DNA from: Bifidobacterium sp. ESL0682 | GTDB lineage: Bacteria > Actinomycetota > Actinomycetes > Actinomycetales > Bifidobacteriaceae | Direction of reading: 5' to 3' | Assembly (NCBI RefSeq): GCF_029392815.1 | Contig: NZ_CP113942.1 | Location: 620,001 to 684,000, forward strand | DNA: 64,000 nt | Shown here: positions 11,701 through 38,118 of the stretch, piece by piece | How positions within the stretch are numbered: position 1 is the first letter of the stretch | Layout: the number at the start of each line of letters is the position of its first letter | Position numbers and translations under genes: made by a program | The notes under the pieces: generated by a model | What the model saw: the letters and a program-made list of their open reading frames with translations, nothing else | Database searches by the model: none | Told to the model about the DNA's origin: nothing

Positions 11701-12792
11701 TTGCGGGTTGCATTGAAGAACAGGGATTTGTGGGTCAACGGGTTACGTCCAAAGACATTGCCGGCGTCGATTGCACCGGTTCTCGTTGGTGTGGTGACGG
11801 CCTATCGTCTTCTGGAAGCCAAGGCGGCCGCCGGTTGCGCGGTCAAGCCAGATGAGTTGCAGGGATGCACGGCAACACCATCACCGGCGGCTTCCGGTGC
11901 TTTTTCAGTCAGTATTTCGGCAGGCATGTTCGCTCTGGTTTCCGTATTGTGCGTCATTGTCGCCTTGTTCCTGCAGATTGCCGTCAATTTTGCCAATGAT
12001 TACTCCGACGGTATCCGAGGCACTGATGCCGGTCGAGGCGCCAGTGAGTTCCAAACCGCCAAACCGCAGCGTCTGACCGCTTCCGGTCTGGTTGTGCCCA
12101 AGCAGGTGCTCGCCGCTGCGGGCATCAATGCTCTTATCGCCTGCCTCGCCGGCCTTGCGGCCGTTGCACTCACCGGTCATTGGTGGATGATTATTCTTGG
12201 TGTGTTCTGCCTGCTTGCCGGATGGTTCTATACAGGTGGCAAGCACCCGTACGGCTATGCCGGTTTCGGCGAGATCGGTGTCTTCGTCTTCTTCGGTCTT
12301 GTGGCGGTGCTTGGCACCCAGTATGTGCTGACCGGTGGCATCAACATTGCAGGCGTCGTCGGCGCCGTGCTTTGCGGCCTTTATTCCTGCGCCATCCTCA
12401 TGGTCAACAACCTGCGTGACGTCGAGGAAGACAAGGTCAGCGGCAAGATGACGCTCGGCGTGATTCTCGGCCCCAAGACAGCACGTACCGTGTTGCTTGT
12501 CGTTTATTTGCTCTCAGTAGTCATCACCATCGTTGTCGCGCTCACGCCTCTGGTTCACACCTTGCTGTCGTTCGTCCCCTCACTGGCCCTGTTCATGGGC
12601 AGAGTGAGCATTATCGGCATGGTTTTGACGGTTTTGGCGCTGGTCTTGGCGTTCGTGATTATCAAGATTGCCATGGATACCGTCAACAGTATCAATGCCG
12701 GGAATTTCGTCAAGGCGTTGCCGATGTGCAGCATGACGCTGCTCCTGTTCGCACTGATTTTCATCATCTCGGAACTTGCTTTGGGAATGTGA
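11701..12792 (+). CDS. menA: 1,4-dihydroxy-2-naphthoate polyprenyltransferase
   Basis: An integral membrane UbiA-family prenyltransferase of 363 residues that attaches a polyprenyl chain to the naphthoate head group to make demethylmenaquinone. The first Asp motif is NFANDYSDGIRGTD and the second is NNLRDVEEDKVSGK. A ~35-residue insert rich in Ala and Cys separates helix 1 from the first Asp motif. The start appears to be TTG at 11701; the ribosome site is weak, so a later start is possible. With the polyprenyl diphosphate synthase at 37 kb it could supply quinone for the respiratory genes. No other men genes are in the window. Confidence 0.9.
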   Translation: MRVALKNRDLWVNGLRPKTLPASIAPVLVGVVTAYRLLEAKAAAGCAVKPDELQGCTATPSPAASGAFSVSISAGMFALVSVLCVIVALFLQIAVNFANDYSDGIRGTDAGRGASEFQTAKPQRLTASGLVVPKQVLAAAGINALIACLAGLAAVALTGHWWMIILGVFCLLAGWFYTGGKHPYGYAGFGEIGVFVFFGLVAVLGTQYVLTGGINIAGVVGAVLCGLYSCAILMVNNLRDVEEDKVSGKMTLGVILGPKTARTVLLVVYLLSVVITIVVALTPLVHTLLSFVPSLALFMGRVSIIGMVLTVLALVLAFVIIKIAMDTVNSINAGNFVKALPMCSMTLLLFALIFIISELALGM

Positions 12793-29112: not shown

Positions 29113-30294
29113 ATGCAGAAGATCGTTGTGTTAGGTGCGGGTTACGCCGGCATGAGAATGGTCAAAAAATTGGCCAAGGCCAAAATCGATGCGCAAATTG
29201 TCTTGGTCAACAAGAATACCTACCATTACCAGTCAACGGAACTTCATGAGGTTGCCGCAGGCACCAAGGAACCGGCTGATATCACCTTTGACGTAAAGCA
29301 AGTCTTCGCCAAGAAGCGCAATGTGCAGGTCGTCATCGACGAGGTCACCAAGATCGATCAAGATACGAAGACAGTCGAACTGAAGGATTCCGGTTCCCTT
29401 TCCTATGATTATCTTGTCAACGCGCTTGGCTTCGAGTCCGAGACCTTCGGCATCAAGGGTGCCGAGGAAAACGGCTTGCCGTTGATCGATATCGACACCG
29501 CGCTCGCCGCACGCAAGCATCTTGAAGATACGTTGAAGCGCTACAAGACCAGCCATGATGAGAACGATCTGAAGATTGTGGTCTGTGGCGCCGGTTTCAC
29601 CTCCATCGAGTACTTGGGTGAACTGGTGTACCGTCTGCCCGATCTCGCCAAGGAATACGGCTTCCCGATCGACAAAGTCAAGATTGACTGCATCGAGGCC
29701 GGCCCGAAGATTCTCGGCATGTTCGAGCCGAAGTTGGCCGACTGGGGCGTGAAGTTCTTGGAAAGCAAGGGCGTCACCTTCCATGTCTCCACTCCCATCA
29801 CCGAAGTGAAGCCGAACGCTGTGGTCAGCAACGACACCGAGTTCCCGGCGAACACGATCATCTGGACGACCGGTGTGCACGGCAGCCATGTCATTGCGGA
29901 TTCCGGTTACGACGAGAAGCGCAATCGCGTCGTCGTCGAGGATGATTTGCGTGTCAAGGGCCAGCCGGATCAGTTCCTTATTGGCGACGTCTCCGCCGTT
30001 CCGAACCCGGACAATGGCCGTCTCTATCCGACCACGGCGCAGATTTCCATCGCCCAAGCCGATTGCGCGGCGGAGAACCTCGTGTCCCTCATCAATGGAG
30101 GAACTACCAAGAAGTTCGTCTTCAAGTCGCTGGGGACGGTGTGCTCTCTCGGCCCGAAGACCGGCATCGCATCCATTGACATGATGGGCCATTGGAATCT
30201 TAAGGGCTGGCTCGCCGCAGTCTCCAAAAAGATGATCGCTGACCGCTCTACGCTTGAGTTGGCCGATATCCGTACTATGCTGGAAACCGATTGA
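29113..30294 (+). CDS. ndh: Type II NADH dehydrogenase (NDH-2)
   Basis: A 393-residue flavoprotein that passes electrons from NADH to quinone without pumping protons. The N-terminal FAD-binding motif is VVLGAGYAGMRMVKKL and the NADH-binding motif is IVVCGAGFTSIEYLGEL near residue 156. The C-terminal FAD contact is FLIGDVSAV. The start is ATG 29113 behind AAGGTG. It is followed after 45 bases by cydA on the same strand, so the dehydrogenase and oxidase are likely coexpressed as a short respiratory chain. NDH-2 is absent from many bifidobacteria, so this is notable for the genus. Confidence 0.92.
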   Translation: MQKIVVLGAGYAGMRMVKKLAKAKIDAQIVLVNKNTYHYQSTELHEVAAGTKEPADITFDVKQVFAKKRNVQVVIDEVTKIDQDTKTVELKDSGSLSYDYLVNALGFESETFGIKGAEENGLPLIDIDTALAARKHLEDTLKRYKTSHDENDLKIVVCGAGFTSIEYLGELVYRLPDLAKEYGFPIDKVKIDCIEAGPKILGMFEPKLADWGVKFLESKGVTFHVSTPITEVKPNAVVSNDTEFPANTIIWTTGVHGSHVIADSGYDEKRNRVVVEDDLRVKGQPDQFLIGDVSAVPNPDNGRLYPTTAQISIAQADCAAENLVSLINGGTTKKFVFKSLGTVCSLGPKTGIASIDMMGHWNLKGWLAAVSKKMIADRSTLELADIRTMLETD

Positions 30295-30339
30295 TATCAA
30301 ACCTTTTAAGTAAGGGAATATTGGGAAGAGAGGATTGAC

Positions 30340-31791
30340 ATGACTGTTTTAGGGTTGTCGCGATTCCAGTTCGCGATGACGACGGTCTTCCATTTCTTCT
30401 TCGTACCGCTGTCTATTGGCCTGGCGTTCACCGTTGCCATTATGGAAACGTTATACGTCGCGAAGAGGAAATACGTATATAAGCGCATGGCGCAGTTCTG
30501 GGGGAAAATCTTCCTCTTGAGCTTCGCTGTTGGCGTAGTGACCGGCATCATTCAGGAGTTCCAGTTCGGTATGAACTGGTCGAACTACTCGCGTTTCATG
30601 GGCGACATCTTCGGCGCCCCGCTTGCCATCGAGGCTTTGCTTGCGTTCTTCATGGAATCCACGTTCATCGGAGTGTGGATGTTCACCTGGAACCGTTTCA
30701 AGCCCGGTGTGCACGTCATCTTCATTTGGCTGACCTGGCTTGGTTCCACGCTGTCGGCTATCTGGATTCTTGCGGCCAACTCCTTCATGCAGAACCCTGT
30801 CGGCTACAGCATCGGCAAGGACGGTCATGCCAAGATGCAGAGCTTTGCCGCAATCATCGGCAATCCGCAGCTCTGGCGTGAGTTCCCGCATGTGGCGACC
30901 GGTGCCCTGATGCTCGGCGGCTTCGTCGTAGTCGGCATGAGCGCTTTCGGTTTCATGCGCAAGGATGCCGATCGCGTATTCTTCACCCGTTCGATCCGTG
31001 TCGGTGCCATTATCGCGCTGATCGGCTCCATCCTGGTCATCTTCACTGGTGACCTGCAGACCCTTGAGATCATCAAGGATCAGCCGATGAAGTTCGCGGC
31101 TACCGAAGGTATCTACGAGGATCTCAAGAGCCCGGCTCCATGGATGGTTGTCGGCTTGATGAACGAGGCCGGTCACAAGGTGGCAGCGGGTATCGAGATT
31201 CCCGGCATGCTTTCCCTGCTGGCGTTCCACAAGCTTTACGGCGGCACGATCTATGGCATGAACACCCTCAACGACCAGTATTTGGCCAAGTGGGGCAAGG
31301 CTCATCCGGACATCGCCAACTACTATGTGCCTACCAATGTGCTGTTCTGGAGCTTCCGCTTCATGGCCGCCGTCGGTTTCGCCGTGTTGGTGCTTTCGAT
31401 CCTGGTTTTGTGGTTCACTCGCAAGTCCAAGAACACTCTGGCGGACAGCCGCTGGAAGCTCTGGATTCTGGGTATCTGCACCTATCTGCCGTTCGTCGGC
31501 ACCACCGGTGGCTGGCTCATCACCGAGCTCGGCCGCTATCCGTGGATCGTCTACGGTCTGCAGACCATCGCCGATGCCGTCTCGCCGACGGCTACCGTGC
31601 CGAGCCTGCTGTTCACCAATATCGTGTACTTCTTGCTCTTCTGCCTCATGGGTGGCGTGATGATCTTCTACTCTCGCCGTGTGCTCCATCAGGGCCCGGA
31701 ACAGGATCCCGAGACCGCCAAGGTGGAGGATGCTCCGAAGGCTGCTCCCGCAGCCGCCAAGGCAGCTGATAGAAAGGTGGCGTTGGCATGA
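30340..31791 (+). CDS. cydA: Cytochrome bd oxidase subunit I
   Basis: 483 residues with about nine membrane helices. His18 in TTVFHFFFVPLSIG is the expected high-spin heme ligand. The MNWSNYSRFMGDIFG and GRYPWIVYG segments match the conserved CydA sequences (GRQPW variant). The quinol-binding Q-loop is the short type of Gram-positive oxidases. It ends in an Ala/Lys-rich tail. It overlaps cydB by 4 bases. Reduces oxygen to water using quinol electrons. Confidence 0.96.
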   Translation: MTVLGLSRFQFAMTTVFHFFFVPLSIGLAFTVAIMETLYVAKRKYVYKRMAQFWGKIFLLSFAVGVVTGIIQEFQFGMNWSNYSRFMGDIFGAPLAIEALLAFFMESTFIGVWMFTWNRFKPGVHVIFIWLTWLGSTLSAIWILAANSFMQNPVGYSIGKDGHAKMQSFAAIIGNPQLWREFPHVATGALMLGGFVVVGMSAFGFMRKDADRVFFTRSIRVGAIIALIGSILVIFTGDLQTLEIIKDQPMKFAATEGIYEDLKSPAPWMVVGLMNEAGHKVAAGIEIPGMLSLLAFHKLYGGTIYGMNTLNDQYLAKWGKAHPDIANYYVPTNVLFWSFRFMAAVGFAVLVLSILVLWFTRKSKNTLADSRWKLWILGICTYLPFVGTTGGWLITELGRYPWIVYGLQTIADAVSPTATVPSLLFTNIVYFLLFCLMGGVMIFYSRRVLHQGPEQDPETAKVEDAPKAAPAAAKAADRKVALA

Positions 31792-32858
31792 CCGCGTTTC
31801 TCGCTAAACCATTGATTGATGGCAACAATTTCCTGCAATTGCTCTGGTTCTTTGTGATTGCACTGGTATTCGCCATCTTCCTCTTCCTCGACGGCATCGA
31901 TTTCGGTGTTGGCATGGCCACCCGCGTGATGGCCCACGACGGCGACGAGCGTGCGCTGTACATGCGTGCAATCGGCCCTCACTGGGACGGCAACGAGGTT
32001 TGGCTCATCACCGGCGGCGGCGCGATGTTCGCATCCTTCCCGCTGTGGTACGCCAGCCTGTTCTCCGGCTACTATCTGCTGCTCTTCATCGTCCTGGTCG
32101 GCCTCATCCTGCGCGGCGTCTCCTTTGAGTTCGCCTCGCACGCCATCACCGACCGTGAACGCAGCGTGTGGCAGTGGGCCAACTTTGCCGGCAGCGTCAT
32201 CGCGCCGTTCGGCCTGGGCATGATGCTCACCAGCGTCATCCAGGGTGTGCCGATGGATGCGCAGGGCAACGTCCGCGCCGGATTCTTCGACGTGGTCAAC
32301 TGGCTTTCGATTGTCGGCGGTGTGGCAGTGGTGTTCTTCTGCTTCCTGCACGGCCTGCACTTCCTGAGCCTGAAGCTCGACAAGACGATGTCCGAGCGGA
32401 TGCTCAACACCACCAAGAAGGTCTACTGGATCGCCTACCCGGCGCTGGTTGTCTTCGTCATCCTGGCGTTCTTCTTCACTGATTTCTATCAGCGTCGCAC
32501 CTGGTCCACGCTGTTGATCACTGTGGTCATCCTGGGCGCCACCATCTGCGGCCACATCGCTGCTTACAAGAAGCGCGGCGGCTTTGCCTTTGTGTCTTCT
32601 GGCATCACCCTTGCCGGCATCATCGCCTTCATCTTCAACGGTTTGTTCCCGAATGTGATGATCGCGACCGATCCGGCCAAGAGCATGAGCGTGGCGGCTG
32701 CCTCGTCTTCGCAGTACACGTTGGAAATCATGACCATCGTGCTCTGCTGCCTGTTGCCGATCGTTCTGATCTACTTCGCCTGGTCCTATTACATCCAGCG
32801 CAAGCGCCTGATCACGGATTCATCGCCGGCTTCCATCAAGGCGGCGTTGTCCGAGTAA
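31788..32858 (+). CDS. cydB: Cytochrome bd oxidase subunit II
   Basis: 356 residues, about eight or nine membrane helices. The N-terminal LDGIDFGVGMATRVM stretch is diagnostic; its Asp lies in the proton path. GPHWDGNEVWLITGGGAMFASFP is fully conserved. It starts inside the cydA stop (ATGA overlap), so the two subunits are translationally coupled. A long hairpin separates it from cydD. Confidence 0.96.
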   Translation: MTAFLAKPLIDGNNFLQLLWFFVIALVFAIFLFLDGIDFGVGMATRVMAHDGDERALYMRAIGPHWDGNEVWLITGGGAMFASFPLWYASLFSGYYLLLFIVLVGLILRGVSFEFASHAITDRERSVWQWANFAGSVIAPFGLGMMLTSVIQGVPMDAQGNVRAGFFDVVNWLSIVGGVAVVFFCFLHGLHFLSLKLDKTMSERMLNTTKKVYWIAYPALVVFVILAFFFTDFYQRRTWSTLLITVVILGATICGHIAAYKKRGGFAFVSSGITLAGIIAFIFNGLFPNVMIATDPAKSMSVAAASSSQYTLEIMTIVLCCLLPIVLIYFAWSYYIQRKRLITDSSPASIKAALSE

Positions 32859-32898
32859 CGGATTGACGTTCGTTTTCCGCTAGGAAGCTGAAATCAAT

Positions 32899-32964
32899 GC
32901 CCGATGTTTTTGTCCCGCAACAATGGATATGAGATACTGTTCATTGTCACGGGAAACATCGGGC
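32899..32964 (+). promoter_or_regulatory. Long interrupted hairpin between cydB and cydD
   Basis: Outer arms GCCCGATGTTT / AAACATCGGGC pair perfectly. Inside are CCCG/CGGG and ACAATG/CATTGT pairs, and the whole is followed by TTTCTTGTCTTT. It may terminate most cydAB transcripts or attenuate reading into cydDC. Confidence 0.65.
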
Positions 32965-33005
32965 TTTCTTGTCTTTAATAACATTTATCAAGGTAGGGAC
33001 TGGCT

Positions 33006-34892
33006 GTGATCGATAAAAGCCTATTCAGGTTCGACGGGGTACGGCAGCGCATGGGGCTGCTCGCGTTGCTTTCCCTGGTGCAGGCGTTGTGCATCGTCGG
33101 CCAGGCCCATGGCTTGGCGCGTGGACTCGTAGAGGTATGGAAACTCCACGCCGTTTCCACGCTGGTCGGTCCCGCTCTCGAATTCCTTGTTTTCTATGTG
33201 CTGCGTCACCTGTGCGATGTCGCCAAGCAACGCATTTCCAGCAAATACGGCAAGTACGTGGCCGGACAGATTCGCCCGCAACTGCAGGAGAAGATCTTCC
33301 GACTTGGCCCGCAGGCATTGGCCTCGCGTGGCACCGGCTCGACAGTGACGATGCTGATTGATGGCTTGGATCAGGTCAAAAGCTATATCGAGATTCTTCT
33401 GCCGAAGATGACCGACATGATGCTCATCTCCTTGGTTATTCTCGTGGCCGTGTGGTGGCAGGACTGGGTCAGTGGGCTGATTCTGATGCTGATGTACCCG
33501 CTGATTATCTTCTTCATGGTCATTTTGGGCCTTGCCGCCCGTGACCGTTCCAACAAGCAGTATGCGCAGTTCAATCTTCTTAATACCAAATTCGTCGACA
33601 GCATCCTTGGTCTGCCGACCTTGAAGATGCTCGGCGTCGACAAGGAATATGAAGGTGAGATCTACAGCGTGAGCGAACGCTTCCGCAAACACACCATCGA
33701 TGTGCTCAAGGTTGCGATGACCTCGACTTTCGCTCTTGACTGGTTCACCACGCTCGGCATCGCCATCATGGCTGTATTCTTGGGGTTGCGCTTGGTCAAC
33801 GGCACCATGCCGCTGTTCCCGGCCCTGTTCGCGCTGATTATGGCTCCCGATTACTTCCTGCCGGTGCGTCAGTTCGGCGACAACTACCACGCCACGCTCG
33901 ACGGCAAGAACGCCCTGCACGACATCATGAGCTTTATCGACAGTCCCGAGACCCCGAAGGACAACGAAACCAAGTGGGACGGTTGGAAGGCCGACAGTGA
34001 GCTCAAGCTTGAGGATGTTGACTTCGCCTATCCTGCGGGCAGCAAGCCGCAAGGGGAAGATGACACGCAAGCCGCGGCAAGCCATAACGTCGCCATGAAT
34101 GCTGTGGAACAGCAGCGTGAAGGTAAGGATGATAAGAAGTCCGAAAATGCCGGCAGCGAAGCCGTTGCGGAACAAACTGCAGCCCAGCCTGACGCATTGC
34201 ATCATCTCTCGATGAACTTCAAAGGCTATGGCAAGATTGCGGTCATCGGCAAATCCGGCGCCGGCAAATCGACACTGATCAACTTGCTTGCCGGATTCAA
34301 CATCCCGCACGCGGGTTCCATCGAACTTGACGGCCACAAACTCGACAATTTCAACGTCGCTGCTTGGCAACGCCATATCAGCTATATTCCGCAGACTCCA
34401 TACATTTTCAGTGGTTCTATTGCCGACAACATCCGTTTCTACGTCAATGATGCGAACGAGCAGGACGTCAAGGCATCTGCCCACGAAGCCGGTCTCGACG
34501 AATGGCTCGCGGAGCTTGCCGACGGGCTTGACACACTGATAGGGGAGGGCAACCGCGGCATCAGCGGTGGGCAGGCGCAGCGTATCGCCCTTGCTCGCGT
34601 CCTGCTGGACAAGTCCCGCGAGGTACTGCTCTTCGACGAGCCGACTGCACATCTTGATATCGAAACCGAATACGACCTGAAGAAGACGCTGCTGCCGATC
34701 ATGGAGAACCACCTGGTCATCCTGGCCACGCACCGTCTGCATTGGCTGGCAAACGTCAATCAAGTGCTGGTGCTCGACGAAGGCAACGTGGTTGAATCGG
34801 GCACACCCAAGGAACTGATCGGCGCGGGTGGTCCGCTCGACCACCTCATCGGCGAGATGGGAGGTAACCAGATTGACCAGTACCTCGACTGA
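33006..34892 (+). CDS. cydD: CydD-type ABC exporter half, with a long insert in the ATPase domain
   Basis: 628 residues, GTG start. An N-terminal six-helix exporter domain is followed by an ATPase with Walker A GKSGAGKST (about residue 415), signature ISGGQAQRIALAR and Walker B VLLFDEPTAHLD. CydDC exports cysteine/glutathione-type thiols and is needed to assemble cytochrome bd. Between the first ATPase strand (DVDFAYP) and the LHHLSMNF strand lies an insert of about 55 polar residues (roughly 344-400), rich in Ala, Glu, Gln and Lys, which typical CydD proteins lack. It follows cydAB after 147 bases and overlaps cydC. Confidence 0.93.
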   Translation: MIDKSLFRFDGVRQRMGLLALLSLVQALCIVGQAHGLARGLVEVWKLHAVSTLVGPALEFLVFYVLRHLCDVAKQRISSKYGKYVAGQIRPQLQEKIFRLGPQALASRGTGSTVTMLIDGLDQVKSYIEILLPKMTDMMLISLVILVAVWWQDWVSGLILMLMYPLIIFFMVILGLAARDRSNKQYAQFNLLNTKFVDSILGLPTLKMLGVDKEYEGEIYSVSERFRKHTIDVLKVAMTSTFALDWFTTLGIAIMAVFLGLRLVNGTMPLFPALFALIMAPDYFLPVRQFGDNYHATLDGKNALHDIMSFIDSPETPKDNETKWDGWKADSELKLEDVDFAYPAGSKPQGEDDTQAAASHNVAMNAVEQQREGKDDKKSENAGSEAVAEQTAAQPDALHHLSMNFKGYGKIAVIGKSGAGKSTLINLLAGFNIPHAGSIELDGHKLDNFNVAAWQRHISYIPQTPYIFSGSIADNIRFYVNDANEQDVKASAHEAGLDEWLAELADGLDTLIGEGNRGISGGQAQRIALARVLLDKSREVLLFDEPTAHLDIETEYDLKKTLLPIMENHLVILATHRLHWLANVNQVLVLDEGNVVESGTPKELIGAGGPLDHLIGEMGGNQIDQYLD

Positions 34893-36891
34893 ATCACAAG
34901 GCAATCCGGATATGAACCCATCCAAGGCAACCATGAACGTGACTGATATGAATGGTAACGGCATCAATGACGCAACGGTCTTGGCCTCAGCCAGTACGAA
35001 TGATGGCGACAGCGTGAAAACCTCGAACAGAGCAAAAGACATGAAAAGCAATGCAGGCAACGCTACAAACGAGAAGGATACTGTTGTCTCTTCGTCCTCG
35101 CTTTCGACGCAGAGCAAGCCGAAACTGCGCGATTACCTGAAAATCTGGGACAATGACCATTGGTTCTGGCCGTACTTGAAGGAGAACAAGCGTACCCTTG
35201 CCCTGATCTTCTTCCTGGGATCCATGACCTTCGTCTGCGCCGCGGCCCTCATGTTCACCGCAGGCTATCTCATCAACCGTTCGGCACGTATGCCCTACAA
35301 CATCCTCTTGGTCTATGTGCCAATCGTCCTGACACGTGCCTTCGGCATTGGCCGGCCTGTGTTTAAATACGCCGAACAGCTCAAAAGCCACGACTGGGTG
35401 CTCCATGTCATTTCCAAGCTACGCGTGCAGCTGTATCGTACGCTTTCCAAGGACGCCGCCTTCCTCAACGAGCACGAGCGTACAGGCAGCGTATTGAGCT
35501 TGCTGGCGGACGATCTCGACCACCTCGAGAACTTCTACCTGCGCACCATTTTCCCGACCGTGGTGGCCTATATTCTCTGGATTGTCGTCACCATCGCCAT
35601 GGGCGTCTTCTCCTGGGTTTCCTCGCTGCTGCTCTTCCTGATGCTCGCATTGGTGCTGATTCTTATCCCGCTGGTTTCGCTGAGCTTCTCAACCGGTCAT
35701 TTCGCGCTGGAAAAGCAACAGCAGGCGCAGGAATACACCAAGGTCACCGAGAGCTACCTCGGCCTGAGCGATTGGGTCATCACCCACAAAGACAAGGATT
35801 TCGTCTCCATCGGCGCCGATGAATACCGGCGAATCCAGGAAAGTAAGGACCGTCAGAAGGCTTTCGAGCGCTGGCGCAACTTCGCCATCCAGATTGTTTT
35901 CGGTGTCATCGCCATCGGCCTGATGGTCGGCGCGGGATTGACTATGACCGGTTCGAAGTCCATCGCTGATTGGTCCGCTTCCATCGTGCTTGCCGTCTTC
36001 CCGCTGGTCGATTGCTTCATCAACGTGGCCCAGGCCGCCGCCGAAGTGCCGCTGTACAGCGATTCGCTTGCCCATCTGAACGATCTGACCAATCGCGTTG
36101 AGGCTCGTCAACACGAGCCTGTGGCCCAGCAAAAGCTCAACGGCCCGATAGAAGAGATCGACTTCGACCATGTCACCTTCGCCTACGGACCCGGCCAGCC
36201 GGTACTGCTTGATGATTTCACATTGCATATCAAGGCGGGCGAGAAGGTTGCACTGCTCGGCCCCAGCGGCGAAGGCAAGACGACCATCCTCCAGCTTCTG
36301 CTTGGTGATTTGACTCCGCAGAAGGGCACTATCGCCATCAACGGCATTCCCGTGGCAGCTCTGCAGGGCGAACGTGCCCGCATCTTCGGCTACCTGAATC
36401 AGCAGGCGTTCCTCTTCAATTCCACCATTGCCGAAAACGTGCGTTTGGGTGCGCCCGACGCCACCGATGAGGATGTGTGGGCAGCATTGAAGGCCGTGCA
36501 GCTCGATGATGCAATTCGCGCGCTTCCGGATGGCATCGCCACCTCCGTCGACGAAGCCGGCCAGCGTTTCTCCGGAGGCCAGCGTCAGCGCATCGCCTTG
36601 GCGCGCATCGTCCTTAAGGACACTCCGGTGATTCTTCTGGACGAGCCGACCATCGGCCTTGACCCGATCACCGAACGCGAGCTGATGTCGATGATCTTCT
36701 CTGCTGCCGGGAACCGCACGATGCTCTGGGTCACCCATCACCTGCAAGGTCTGGAACAGTCGGACAAGGTCATCTTCCTTGACAACGGCAAGATCGCCAT
36801 GCAGGGCGCGCCGACAGAACTTTACCGCACCAACGAGCGCTTCCGTGAGCTCTATCGCCTCGACGTAGGAGAGCTGGAAACGGCGCGCTAA
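34873..36891 (+). CDS. cydC: CydC-type ABC exporter half
   Basis: About 672 residues from a TTG start at 34873 that sits 8 bases behind GGGAGG inside the cydD end; ATG 34912 is an alternative. The first ~80 residues are a Ser/Thr/Asn-rich, probably disordered leader. The exporter helices follow and then an ATPase with Walker A GPSGEGKTT, signature FSGGQRQRIALAR and Walker B VILLDEPTIGLD. It forms the heterodimer with CydD. Last gene of the respiratory operon. Confidence 0.93.
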   Translation: MTSTSTESQGNPDMNPSKATMNVTDMNGNGINDATVLASASTNDGDSVKTSNRAKDMKSNAGNATNEKDTVVSSSSLSTQSKPKLRDYLKIWDNDHWFWPYLKENKRTLALIFFLGSMTFVCAAALMFTAGYLINRSARMPYNILLVYVPIVLTRAFGIGRPVFKYAEQLKSHDWVLHVISKLRVQLYRTLSKDAAFLNEHERTGSVLSLLADDLDHLENFYLRTIFPTVVAYILWIVVTIAMGVFSWVSSLLLFLMLALVLILIPLVSLSFSTGHFALEKQQQAQEYTKVTESYLGLSDWVITHKDKDFVSIGADEYRRIQESKDRQKAFERWRNFAIQIVFGVIAIGLMVGAGLTMTGSKSIADWSASIVLAVFPLVDCFINVAQAAAEVPLYSDSLAHLNDLTNRVEARQHEPVAQQKLNGPIEEIDFDHVTFAYGPGQPVLLDDFTLHIKAGEKVALLGPSGEGKTTILQLLLGDLTPQKGTIAINGIPVAALQGERARIFGYLNQQAFLFNSTIAENVRLGAPDATDEDVWAALKAVQLDDAIRALPDGIATSVDEAGQRFSGGQRQRIALARIVLKDTPVILLDEPTIGLDPITERELMSMIFSAAGNRTMLWVTHHLQGLEQSDKVIFLDNGKIAMQGAPTELYRTNERFRELYRLDVGELETAR

Positions 36892-37013: not shown

Positions 37014-37985
37014 TCAGAGAGTAGCGGTGAATTTGTCGATAATATTGACCAGTACTTTGACCGTGTATGGATTAATCGTCGGGTACTCATCGCCGGTGAT
37101 GACATTCTTTGCGGTTTCCAAATGTTGCAGGGCTTCTTGCTTGGCTGCATCGATGAAGTGCGGATTGGTCTTGAAATAATCAAGTACCTTGAGCGGGTCG
37201 TCGAGTTTGACGATATCGACGAACGAGCGGTCGGCCGCAATGGCCAAAATGACGGGCAGGGTGTAGATGCCGTCGCGAATGTCTTCCAACTTCGGCTTGC
37301 CGGTGTCGTGGGTCACATCAAAGTCCTCGACATCGTCCAAGATTTGGAATGCGATACCCAGATGTTCTCCGAAGTTCGCAGCCTGTTCAAGTGTTTCAGG
37401 GGAAGGGGAGTCGATGGTCAGTTTGACTCCGGTGATGGCGGCCAGACGGAACAGCGCCGCCGTTTTACCGGCAATGGCGCGCTCGTAGTATTCCTTGGTG
37501 ACATCGATATCGTGTCGTGCGCTTTCCTGTAGCAGGTCGCCGGCGACGATTTCGTTGACCGTATGCGCCTGTTCGACGATGAAATCCTTGTCCGGGGCGA
37601 TGGTGGCCATGATTTCCATGTAACGGGAGAGGATGAGATCGCCCAGATAAATGGCGGCCTTATTGCCGCGAGTGATTTGCACCGTAGGCTGATTGCGGCG
37701 TACGGAGGCGTTGTCGAGCACATCGTCATGGACCAGTGTGGCCAGATGAAGCATCTCGATGGCCGCCGCGCCGGTTATGATGAGGTTGGCGGCGGCTTTC
37801 GGCTTGTCAGGCTGCACGGCATAGGAAAACAGCAGCACCAGTGAGGCGCGAATCATCTTGCCATGGTTGTCGAGCAGGCGGCGGTAATCCTCGCGGTACG
37901 GGGTAACGTTGTCCTCTTCGTTATGCAACGTTTCAACCACGCGCTTCAAATCGTCGCGCAACAGGAATTCCTGTTGATTCGGCAT
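37014..37985 (-). CDS. Trans-polyprenyl (hepta/octaprenyl) diphosphate synthase
   Basis: Builds the isoprenoid chain for quinones or other lipids. The first aspartate motif is LVHDDVLDNASVRRNQPT and the second is FQILDDVEDF, both intact. I choose the ATG at 37985, giving 323 residues, because GGTAGGT stands just before it; a TTG 7 codons earlier (38006) is less likely. Convergent with the cytochrome bd operon, it would supply the side chain for MenA at 11.7 kb. Exact chain length cannot be read. Confidence 0.9.
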   Translation of the reverse strand: MPNQQEFLLRDDLKRVVETLHNEEDNVTPYREDYRRLLDNHGKMIRASLVLLFSYAVQPDKPKAAANLIITGAAAIEMLHLATLVHDDVLDNASVRRNQPTVQITRGNKAAIYLGDLILSRYMEIMATIAPDKDFIVEQAHTVNEIVAGDLLQESARHDIDVTKEYYERAIAGKTAALFRLAAITGVKLTIDSPSPETLEQAANFGEHLGIAFQILDDVEDFDVTHDTGKPKLEDIRDGIYTLPVILAIAADRSFVDIVKLDDPLKVLDYFKTNPHFIDAAKQEALQHLETAKNVITGDEYPTINPYTVKVLVNIIDKFTATL

Positions 37986-38118
37986 ACCTACCCGACCTCT
38001 CGGCAATAATTTTTAATGACTGTATGAACGTACCCAATATAGCATGACTGCAGATATTCACCAGGTTTCAATTTGTATCATTTGCCCAGTGTTTTGTAGG
38101 CTTGCGGGATGTTTAATA

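Follow-up and report, generated by a model that had tools for sequence, protein, structure and literature searches.

The closest described counterparts of the genes treated here are found in bee-associated bifidobacteria such as Bifidobacterium asteroides PRL2011, which likewise carry cydABDC for a cytochrome bd oxidase (PMC3447821, PMC5540593, PMC4449606 and PMC9004370, as far as the available text of these papers goes), and in lactic acid bacteria. In the same text, cydABCD is reported from 11 Bifidobacteriaceae genomes (PMC5540593), and the genes are inferred to be ancestral in Bifidobacterium and lost in other species (PMC3447821, PMC4449606), the latter paper citing their G+C content. Lactic acid bacteria are described, in the accessible part of PMC2696406, that need heme, or heme and menaquinone, for respiratory growth. 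A comparable block is present in Bifidobacterium sp. ESL0682, within the window analysed here, i.e., a stretch of 64,000 nucleotides (contig NZ_CP113942.1, positions 620,001 to 684,000) to which all coordinates below refer. The presence of cydABCD in bee bifidobacteria was previously known, and the respiratory block is known as a kind; what is added here is a lactobacillar origin, a sixth gene, a hairpin and a gap in cofactor supply. The reading that is preferred, with a probability of roughly 0.8, is that of a conditional respiratory module of the Lactobacillaceae type, which would have been acquired as a block and would depend on imported heme and, for its (demethyl)menaquinone, on the scavenging of a precursor. 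The features concerned are the following.

29113..30294, + strand: NDH-2, type II NADH:quinone oxidoreductase (non-pumping, FAD); ATG start at 29113; PF07992, E 1.2e-39
30340..31791, + strand: cydA, cytochrome bd subunit I; PF01654, 505 bits, full model
31788..32858, + strand: cydB, cytochrome bd subunit II; TIGR00203, 270 bits (cut-off 117); PF02322, 305 bits
32899..32976, + strand: terminator-like hairpin (32899-32964) with T-rich tail; fold z -5.8
33006..34892, + strand: cydD, one half of CydDC, a thiol exporter required to assemble cytochrome bd; start codon GTG; TIGR02857, 535 bits (cut-off 435)
34912..36891, + strand: cydC, the other CydDC half; ATG start at 34912; TIGR02868, 472 bits (cut-off 329)
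37014..38006, - strand: polyprenyl diphosphate synthase, convergent with cydC, predicted maker of the quinone side chain; PF00348, E 3.4e-52
11701..12792, + strand: MenA, 1,4-dihydroxy-2-naphthoate polyprenyltransferase; TIGR00751, 186 bits (cut-off 102)

The five genes from NDH-2 to cydC occupy positions 29113-36891, as the first-pass annotation had described, and all are intact, in this order and with a single open frame each. The convergent synthase, MenA and the hairpin were absent from that annotation. Genes cydA and cydB overlap by 4 bases, and the gaps between NDH-2 and cydA, cydB and cydD, and cydD and cydC measure 45, 147 and 19 bases, respectively. CydB, CydD and CydC score above the NCBIfam equivalog cut-offs, and the genome, a single contig of 2.09 Mb, contains just one CydA (PF01654) match. 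This CydA can be aligned to the solved CydA structures 7nkz, 7d5i and 7ose and retains H18, E98, E106, H184, K251, E256, R340 and M342 (placed by motif), which we take to be the equivalents of H19, E99, E107, H186, K252, E257, R391 and M393 of the E. coli protein, presumably heme ligands, conserved glutamates and quinol-site residues. The nearest solved relative of the NDH-2 protein is 5na1 (SAOUHSC_00878; E 4.1e-89 over residues 1-387), assumed here to be NDH-2 of S. aureus; matches were also obtained with 5na4 and with 4nwz (E 9.2e-74), both of which are presumably NDH-2 entries. Judged by these matches, the NADH enzyme of the block is a single-subunit FAD-containing NDH-2, which is not a proton pump, whereas the dehydrogenase of the bee bifidobacteria is called proton-moving (PMC3447821) or H+-translocating (PMC9004370) in the available text. 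A coupling of NADH to oxygen without a pumping dehydrogenase, as had been proposed from the sequence alone, is consistent with this single-subunit enzyme (complex I was not searched for).

The origin of the block was addressed by comparison of CydA with the best 80 of at least 598 loci, a set that leans to close relatives. Among the matches listed, CydA is 63% identical to the B. asteroides protein and 50-61% identical to those of Lactobacillales, the nearest non-bifidobacterial sequences being from Companilactobacillus and uncultured Lactobacillus (up to 61%). Identity to actinobacterial CydA, drawn from 60 sampled genomes, is at most 42% over the full length, with 44% in one partial row. In a CydA tree of 74 of the 148 loci with a CydA match (supports given for the CydA, CydABDC and NDH-2 trees are SH-like approximate likelihood ratio test, SH-aLRT, values from quick searches), the 24 Bifidobacterium sequences form one clade (99), which lies inside a clade of Lactobacillales and Bifidobacterium (100). 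The topology expected from vertical descent, with Bifidobacterium and Actinobacteria as one clade, is rejected in the approximately unbiased (AU) test (p-AU 1.9e-12). In the concatenated CydABDC tree (45 rows, 1957 columns), 15 Bifidobacterium sequences join Apilactobacillus (96) and then Companilactobacillus (99), in a group that otherwise consists entirely of Lactobacillaceae (100). Apilactobacillus is a bee-associated genus. A tree in which the Lactobacillales sequences and Galliscardovia stand together, apart from Bifidobacterium, is rejected as well (p-AU 2.3e-69). The NDH-2 of the window groups with Lactobacillales NDH-2, with a support of 97 for Apilactobacillus plus Bifidobacterium. 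In these phylogenies both the cyd genes and NDH-2 fall within Lactobacillales.

The gene order agrees with these trees. In Apilactobacillus quenuiae (L049) and Streptococcus didelphis (L100), two of the 23 Lactobacillales loci, all six genes, including the polyprenyl synthase, are present in identical order and on identical strands. NDH-2 lies upstream of the cyd genes in each of the 23 Bifidobacterium loci read, and it is followed by cydABDC in all ten other cyd-carrying (cyd+) genomes fetched as 'same genus' (L111-L120). The synthase is found downstream on the opposite strand in 19/23 Bifidobacterium loci and in at least 15/23 Lactobacillales loci, in some of them a few kilobases away; some Lactobacillales stretches end early, so that neighbour counts there are lower bounds. 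A tandem second NDH-2 gene, 76-78% identical to that of the window, precedes the first in eight of the ten same-genus loci (L111-L115, L117, L119 and L120), and NDH-2 is single in the window, L116 and L118. Unlike the window, the B. asteroides-type genomes (L032, L033, L124 and L125) have cydA last, after cydC, in the order NDH-2, cydB, cydD, cydC, cydA. The phylogenies, the AU tests and the order shared with A. quenuiae together support, at the level of sequence, an acquisition of CydABDC and NDH-2 of Bifidobacterium from Lactobacillaceae as a block, which the first-pass annotation had raised as a possibility.

Homologous CydABDC and NDH-2, together with similar gaps in heme and quinone synthesis, are what ESL0682 has in common with the lactic acid bacteria (Apilactobacillus, Companilactobacillus, L. 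plantarum), in addition to the six-gene arrangement of L049 and L100. It differs from them in its actinobacterial host, its native-type MenA and the host-like G+C content, and also between cydB and cydD, where the three Lactobacillales measured have no gap (L035, L100) or one of 26 bases (L049), whereas the clade of the window has a hairpin. Galliscardovia ingluviei (L048/G046), of the same family, resembles ESL0682 in having cydABDC, a convergent polyprenyl synthase and NDH-2. Unlike ESL0682, however, it groups with Streptococcus didelphis (99 in CydA, 100 in the concatenated tree, 97 in NDH-2), its genes follow the order cydABDC, synthase, UbiA-family gene, NDH-2, and UbiE is matched in it at full strength (145 bits), a match that ESL0682 lacks. 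A tree that unites CydA of Galliscardovia and of all other Bifidobacteriaceae in one clade is rejected (p-AU 2.3e-8). On these trees Galliscardovia is an independent acquirer of its own copy.

CydA was found in 36 of the 151 Bifidobacteriaceae genomes, which bears out the earlier statement that most bifidobacteria do not have this set. The association with insects that had been suggested holds in that cyd genes are known in bee bifidobacteria, but it is not exclusive, as the available text of PMC9004370 also lists B. subtile, from sewage. An RpoB tree, whose root is not known, was calculated for 30 chosen genomes (16 of the 36 cyd+ and 14 of the 115 without cyd, cyd-). The 15 cyd+ genomes other than Galliscardovia fall within a 21-row part of this tree (support 81/96), alongside six cyd- genomes. 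A single gain followed by losses in Bifidobacterium, plus a separate gain in Galliscardovia, would fit this distribution best.

The synthase next to cydC may be part of the same inheritance. At least two PF00348 matches were obtained in 36/36 cyd+ genomes versus 13/115 cyd- genomes. The synthase of the window scores 127-154 bits against 15 Lactobacillales synthases and 56-63 bits against five bifidobacterial housekeeping ones; it is 33-41% identical to its Lactobacillales homologues and forms a very long branch, of 3.4 changes per site. It probably belonged to the acquired block, a common origin with the other genes being suggested by position, strand and scores. MenA, in contrast, is 41-67% identical to homologues in 30/30 compared bifidobacterial loci, those without cyd included, and only ~25% identical to its homologues in the Lactobacillales stretches L052 and L054; for this reason we take it as native to bifidobacteria and outside the acquired block. 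UbiA-family prenyltransferases are near-universal in the family even where cyd is absent, with matches in 148/151 genomes, and those in the 30 compared loci are MenA-like.

The cofactors of the chain present a different picture. In the first-pass annotation the chain was called complete, which does not extend to the heme and quinone that it needs. The search of the ESL0682 genome for heme synthesis, which had been recommended there, gave no match to ferrochelatase (HemH), to uroporphyrinogen decarboxylase (HemE) or to the chlorite-dismutase family, which holds coproheme decarboxylase (ChdC). The same family searches yielded no UbiE/MenG match, and the best MenD match reaches 72 bits versus a cut-off of 244; the searches did not extend to MenB, MenC, MenE, MenF, MenH, CgoX, HemN or the early part of heme synthesis. 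Among 14 control genomes, matches over the cut-off were obtained for HemH in 8, HemE in 7, ChdC in 7, UbiE in 14 and MenD in 7. Because neither MenD nor the last heme enzymes are seen in the genome, it is predicted that the cell depends on an external supply of heme and of at least 1,4-dihydroxy-2-naphthoate (DHNA) or a quinone. For the steps searched, ESL0682 conforms to the lactic-acid-bacterial pattern, in which heme is not made by the cell itself and the menaquinone pathway has gaps; MenA is present.

Experimental parallels are available for both cofactors, as described in the accessible text of the papers concerned. Menaquinones are found in L. plantarum, which has MenA but lacks the steps before it, when the cells have been grown with DHNA (PMC10746273), and a menG deletion mutant of L. 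lactis grows like the wild type under respiratory conditions (PMC8303990); together these data make a demethylmenaquinone route plausible. DHNA is also reported to raise the growth of Bifidobacterium (PMC10746273). No oxygen uptake was seen in B. coryneforme, B. indicum and B. actinocoloniiforme, whereas B. asteroides did take up oxygen, and it was proposed that a missing peroxide-dependent heme synthase, i.e., the ChdC reaction, may explain the absent uptake (PMC9004370). By the same logic ESL0682, which has no ChdC match, would be expected to behave like the non-uptake group unless heme is fed.

In this respect ESL0682 differs from many of its relatives, as intact HemH is found in 21/36 cyd+ versus 1/115 cyd- genomes and intact ChdC in 20/36 versus 0/115, with decayed or partial matches left out of the counts (G027 and G030 for HemH, G027 for ChdC). 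Both enzymes are intact in 20 of the 36 cyd+ genomes. In cyd+ relatives the two genes flank a gene for a major facilitator superfamily (MFS) transporter (L208 4192-7457 in G101, L209 3422-8908 in G108, L211 4349-7323 in G039); the intervening gene is not the oxidase CgoX, for which the rest of those genomes was not searched. The coproheme decarboxylase of L208 scores 254 of 253 bits with model NF008913, which it fits, but 56 of 235 with the actinobacterial HemQ model, which it does not. Since an MFS gene, rather than CgoX, lies between the two enzymes, the arrangement suggests salvage of coproporphyrin. Three tandem ferrochelatase genes are present in each of G108, G117, G137 and G148. Full-strength MenD (>420 bits) was found in two relatives, G101 (L214 6586-11490) and G108; in G101 it lies beside menF, menH and menC (low-G+C/archaeal model), so that the pathway to menaquinone is represented there by more of its steps.

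From these elements the following mechanism may be envisaged. An ancestor of part of Bifidobacterium, including the bee-associated species, would have acquired the block in an old event. NDH-2 would oxidise NADH and reduce a naphthoquinone in the membrane, with no protons pumped, and cytochrome bd, composed of CydAB and matured by CydDC, would oxidise the quinol and reduce oxygen to water, with protons released outside, as is usual in the cytochrome bd family. The linked polyprenyl synthase would provide the isoprenoid tail, which the native MenA would join to DHNA, and both DHNA and hemes would be scavenged from the surroundings. Without MenG, the expected quinone is demethylmenaquinone. Respiration would then take place only if heme and either DHNA or a menaquinone are available, as in many lactic acid bacteria. 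Activity, cofactor uptake and the demethylmenaquinone route are what we infer; the gene identities, their linkage, the origin of CydABDC and NDH-2 and the absences by family search are read from the DNA itself.

Four other explanations have to be weighed against this module. According to the published one, the chain descended vertically from actinobacterial ancestors into Bifidobacterium and was lost in mammal-associated species (PMC3447821, PMC4449606, available text). It is highly improbable in view of the rejected vertical descent of CydA, the nesting of CydABDC within Lactobacillaceae, the lower CydA identities to Actinobacteria (at most 44%, in a partial row, and 42% over the full length, versus 50-61% to Lactobacillales among the matches listed) and the confinement of the 15 non-Galliscardovia cyd+ genomes to one part of the RpoB tree, even though the block equals the genome in G+C content, the argument used in PMC4449606, and the six cyd- genomes among the cyd+ ones make some losses likely. 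A self-sufficient chain, with heme and quinone made by routes that family searches miss, is improbable too: MenA and the polyprenyl synthase are present, MenD exceeds the cut-off in G101 and G108 (in G101 with menF, menH and menC), the clade can evidently hold HemH and ChdC, as both are intact in 20 cyd+ relatives, and several pathway steps lay outside the genome searches, but HemH, HemE, ChdC and UbiE are unmatched in a single-contig genome, MenD falls far below its cut-off, and identical searches gave matches over the cut-off in the control genomes.

The remaining two explanations concern the use that is made of the genes. That the cluster serves mainly for oxygen removal and NADH recycling (protection and redox balance), with little energy gain, is unlikely but deserves consideration; it is compatible with a conditional respiratory module and differs from it in the benefit only. 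NDH-2 does not pump, which favours such a role; cytochrome bd releases protons outside, which argues for some energy gain. In B. asteroides, according to the available text of PMC3447821, oxygen uptake is 6.2 nmol/min per mg, far below that of respirers such as L. lactis, and the cytochrome oxidase genes are highly expressed both with and without oxygen, in agreement with oxygen removal. It is also conceivable, with as little likelihood as for the self-sufficient chain, that NDH-2 and MenA serve extracellular or other electron transfer, the oxidase being idle because heme is never obtained. The occurrence of UbiA-family genes in cyd- genomes would fit this, as would the extracellular electron transfer of L. 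plantarum, which is driven by Ndh2 and DHNA (PMC10746273, accessible text). An unused oxidase would, however, be expected to lose its genes and site residues; in ESL0682 none of the four cyd genes is disrupted, and CydA retains the residues of its heme and quinol sites.

A number of observations count against the block-acquired module that runs on imported cofactors. The genome is listed as 94% complete, the supply gaps rest on some of the heme and quinone steps only, and neither a heme nor a DHNA importer was identified. In addition, menF, menC, menE and menA are listed for B. asteroides in the available text of PMC3447821. The synthase is too divergent for its own tree to prove its origin. 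No G+C shift marks a transfer, the block having 56.4% G+C versus 56.0% for the window, a match with the genome that we read as indicating an old transfer. The branch of Apilactobacillus is long in all four trees (CydA, NDH-2, synthase and concatenated CydABDC), and the NDH-2 set includes no Companilactobacillus sequence; for both reasons Apilactobacillus is better regarded as one of the apparent nearest relatives than as the exact donor. Finally, the cyd block and NDH-2 of L116 (G127) cluster with those of G088 and related genomes, whereas RpoB places G127 in the clade of the window; it is therefore likely that cyd and NDH-2 blocks were also exchanged later among bifidobacteria.

Between cydB and cydD the block is interrupted by the terminator-like hairpin, for which none of 200 shuffled sequences is equally stable. 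When the window is aligned with nine relatives, 95.8% of cells pair, and sliding the partners drops pairing to 33-47%. Double changes occur in 11 of the 26 pairs, versus a mean of 6.3 in shuffled alignments, and 1 of 500 shuffles scores as high. At a similar place in B. bohemicum there is also a hairpin followed by a T-rich tail, but it is a different one. Rfam at the gathering score returns tRNAs only and no family at the hairpin, where just sub-threshold microRNA families match. The scans for terminators (9 terminator-like sites versus 8.6 expected) and for sigma-70 promoters (1 promoter-like site versus 5.0 expected) are uninformative; the former omitted this hairpin, probably owing to its inner loops. 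A dispersed repeat was considered and rejected, as CCCGAT...ATCGGG occurs once in the window (0.33 expected) and model R1 has no strong match beyond its ten building sequences in the 34 sources searched, the rest of the genome not having been searched. The simplest reading of the conserved hairpin is partial termination, which would hold cydDC below cydAB. No regulator site was identified for the block. One regulon had been suggested from the tight clustering; with the hairpin placed between cydAB and cydDC, expression need not be uniform over the block, and this part of the first-pass annotation is uncertain.

The transfer from Lactobacillaceae that is supported by the sequence comparisons conflicts with the ancestral and subsequently lost chain of PMC3447821 and PMC4449606, at least as presented in their available text, and would replace that account of respiration lost in mammal-associated bifidobacteria. 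A lactobacillar origin of the bifidobacterial cyd genes was not found stated in the literature searched, which did not cover Fig. S3 of PMC3447821, a supplementary cyd tree. The cofactor gap extends the idea in the accessible text of PMC9004370 that missing heme steps may explain absent uptake despite intact cyd genes. More broadly, and tentatively, with the odds slightly against it, Bifidobacteriaceae may have gained respiration at least twice by capture of a Lactobacillales block, which in Bifidobacterium would run on cofactors cross-fed in the insect gut. The quinone would be a hybrid product of an acquired synthase, native MenA and scavenged DHNA, left as demethylmenaquinone for want of MenG, and heme would be taken up whole, as predicted for ESL0682, or finished from scavenged coproporphyrin by the HemH/MFS/ChdC cluster found in relatives. 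The prediction that oxygen uptake depends on feeding would thereby connect the use of oxygen by a supposedly fermentative genus with heme and DHNA that are cross-fed in the insect gut.

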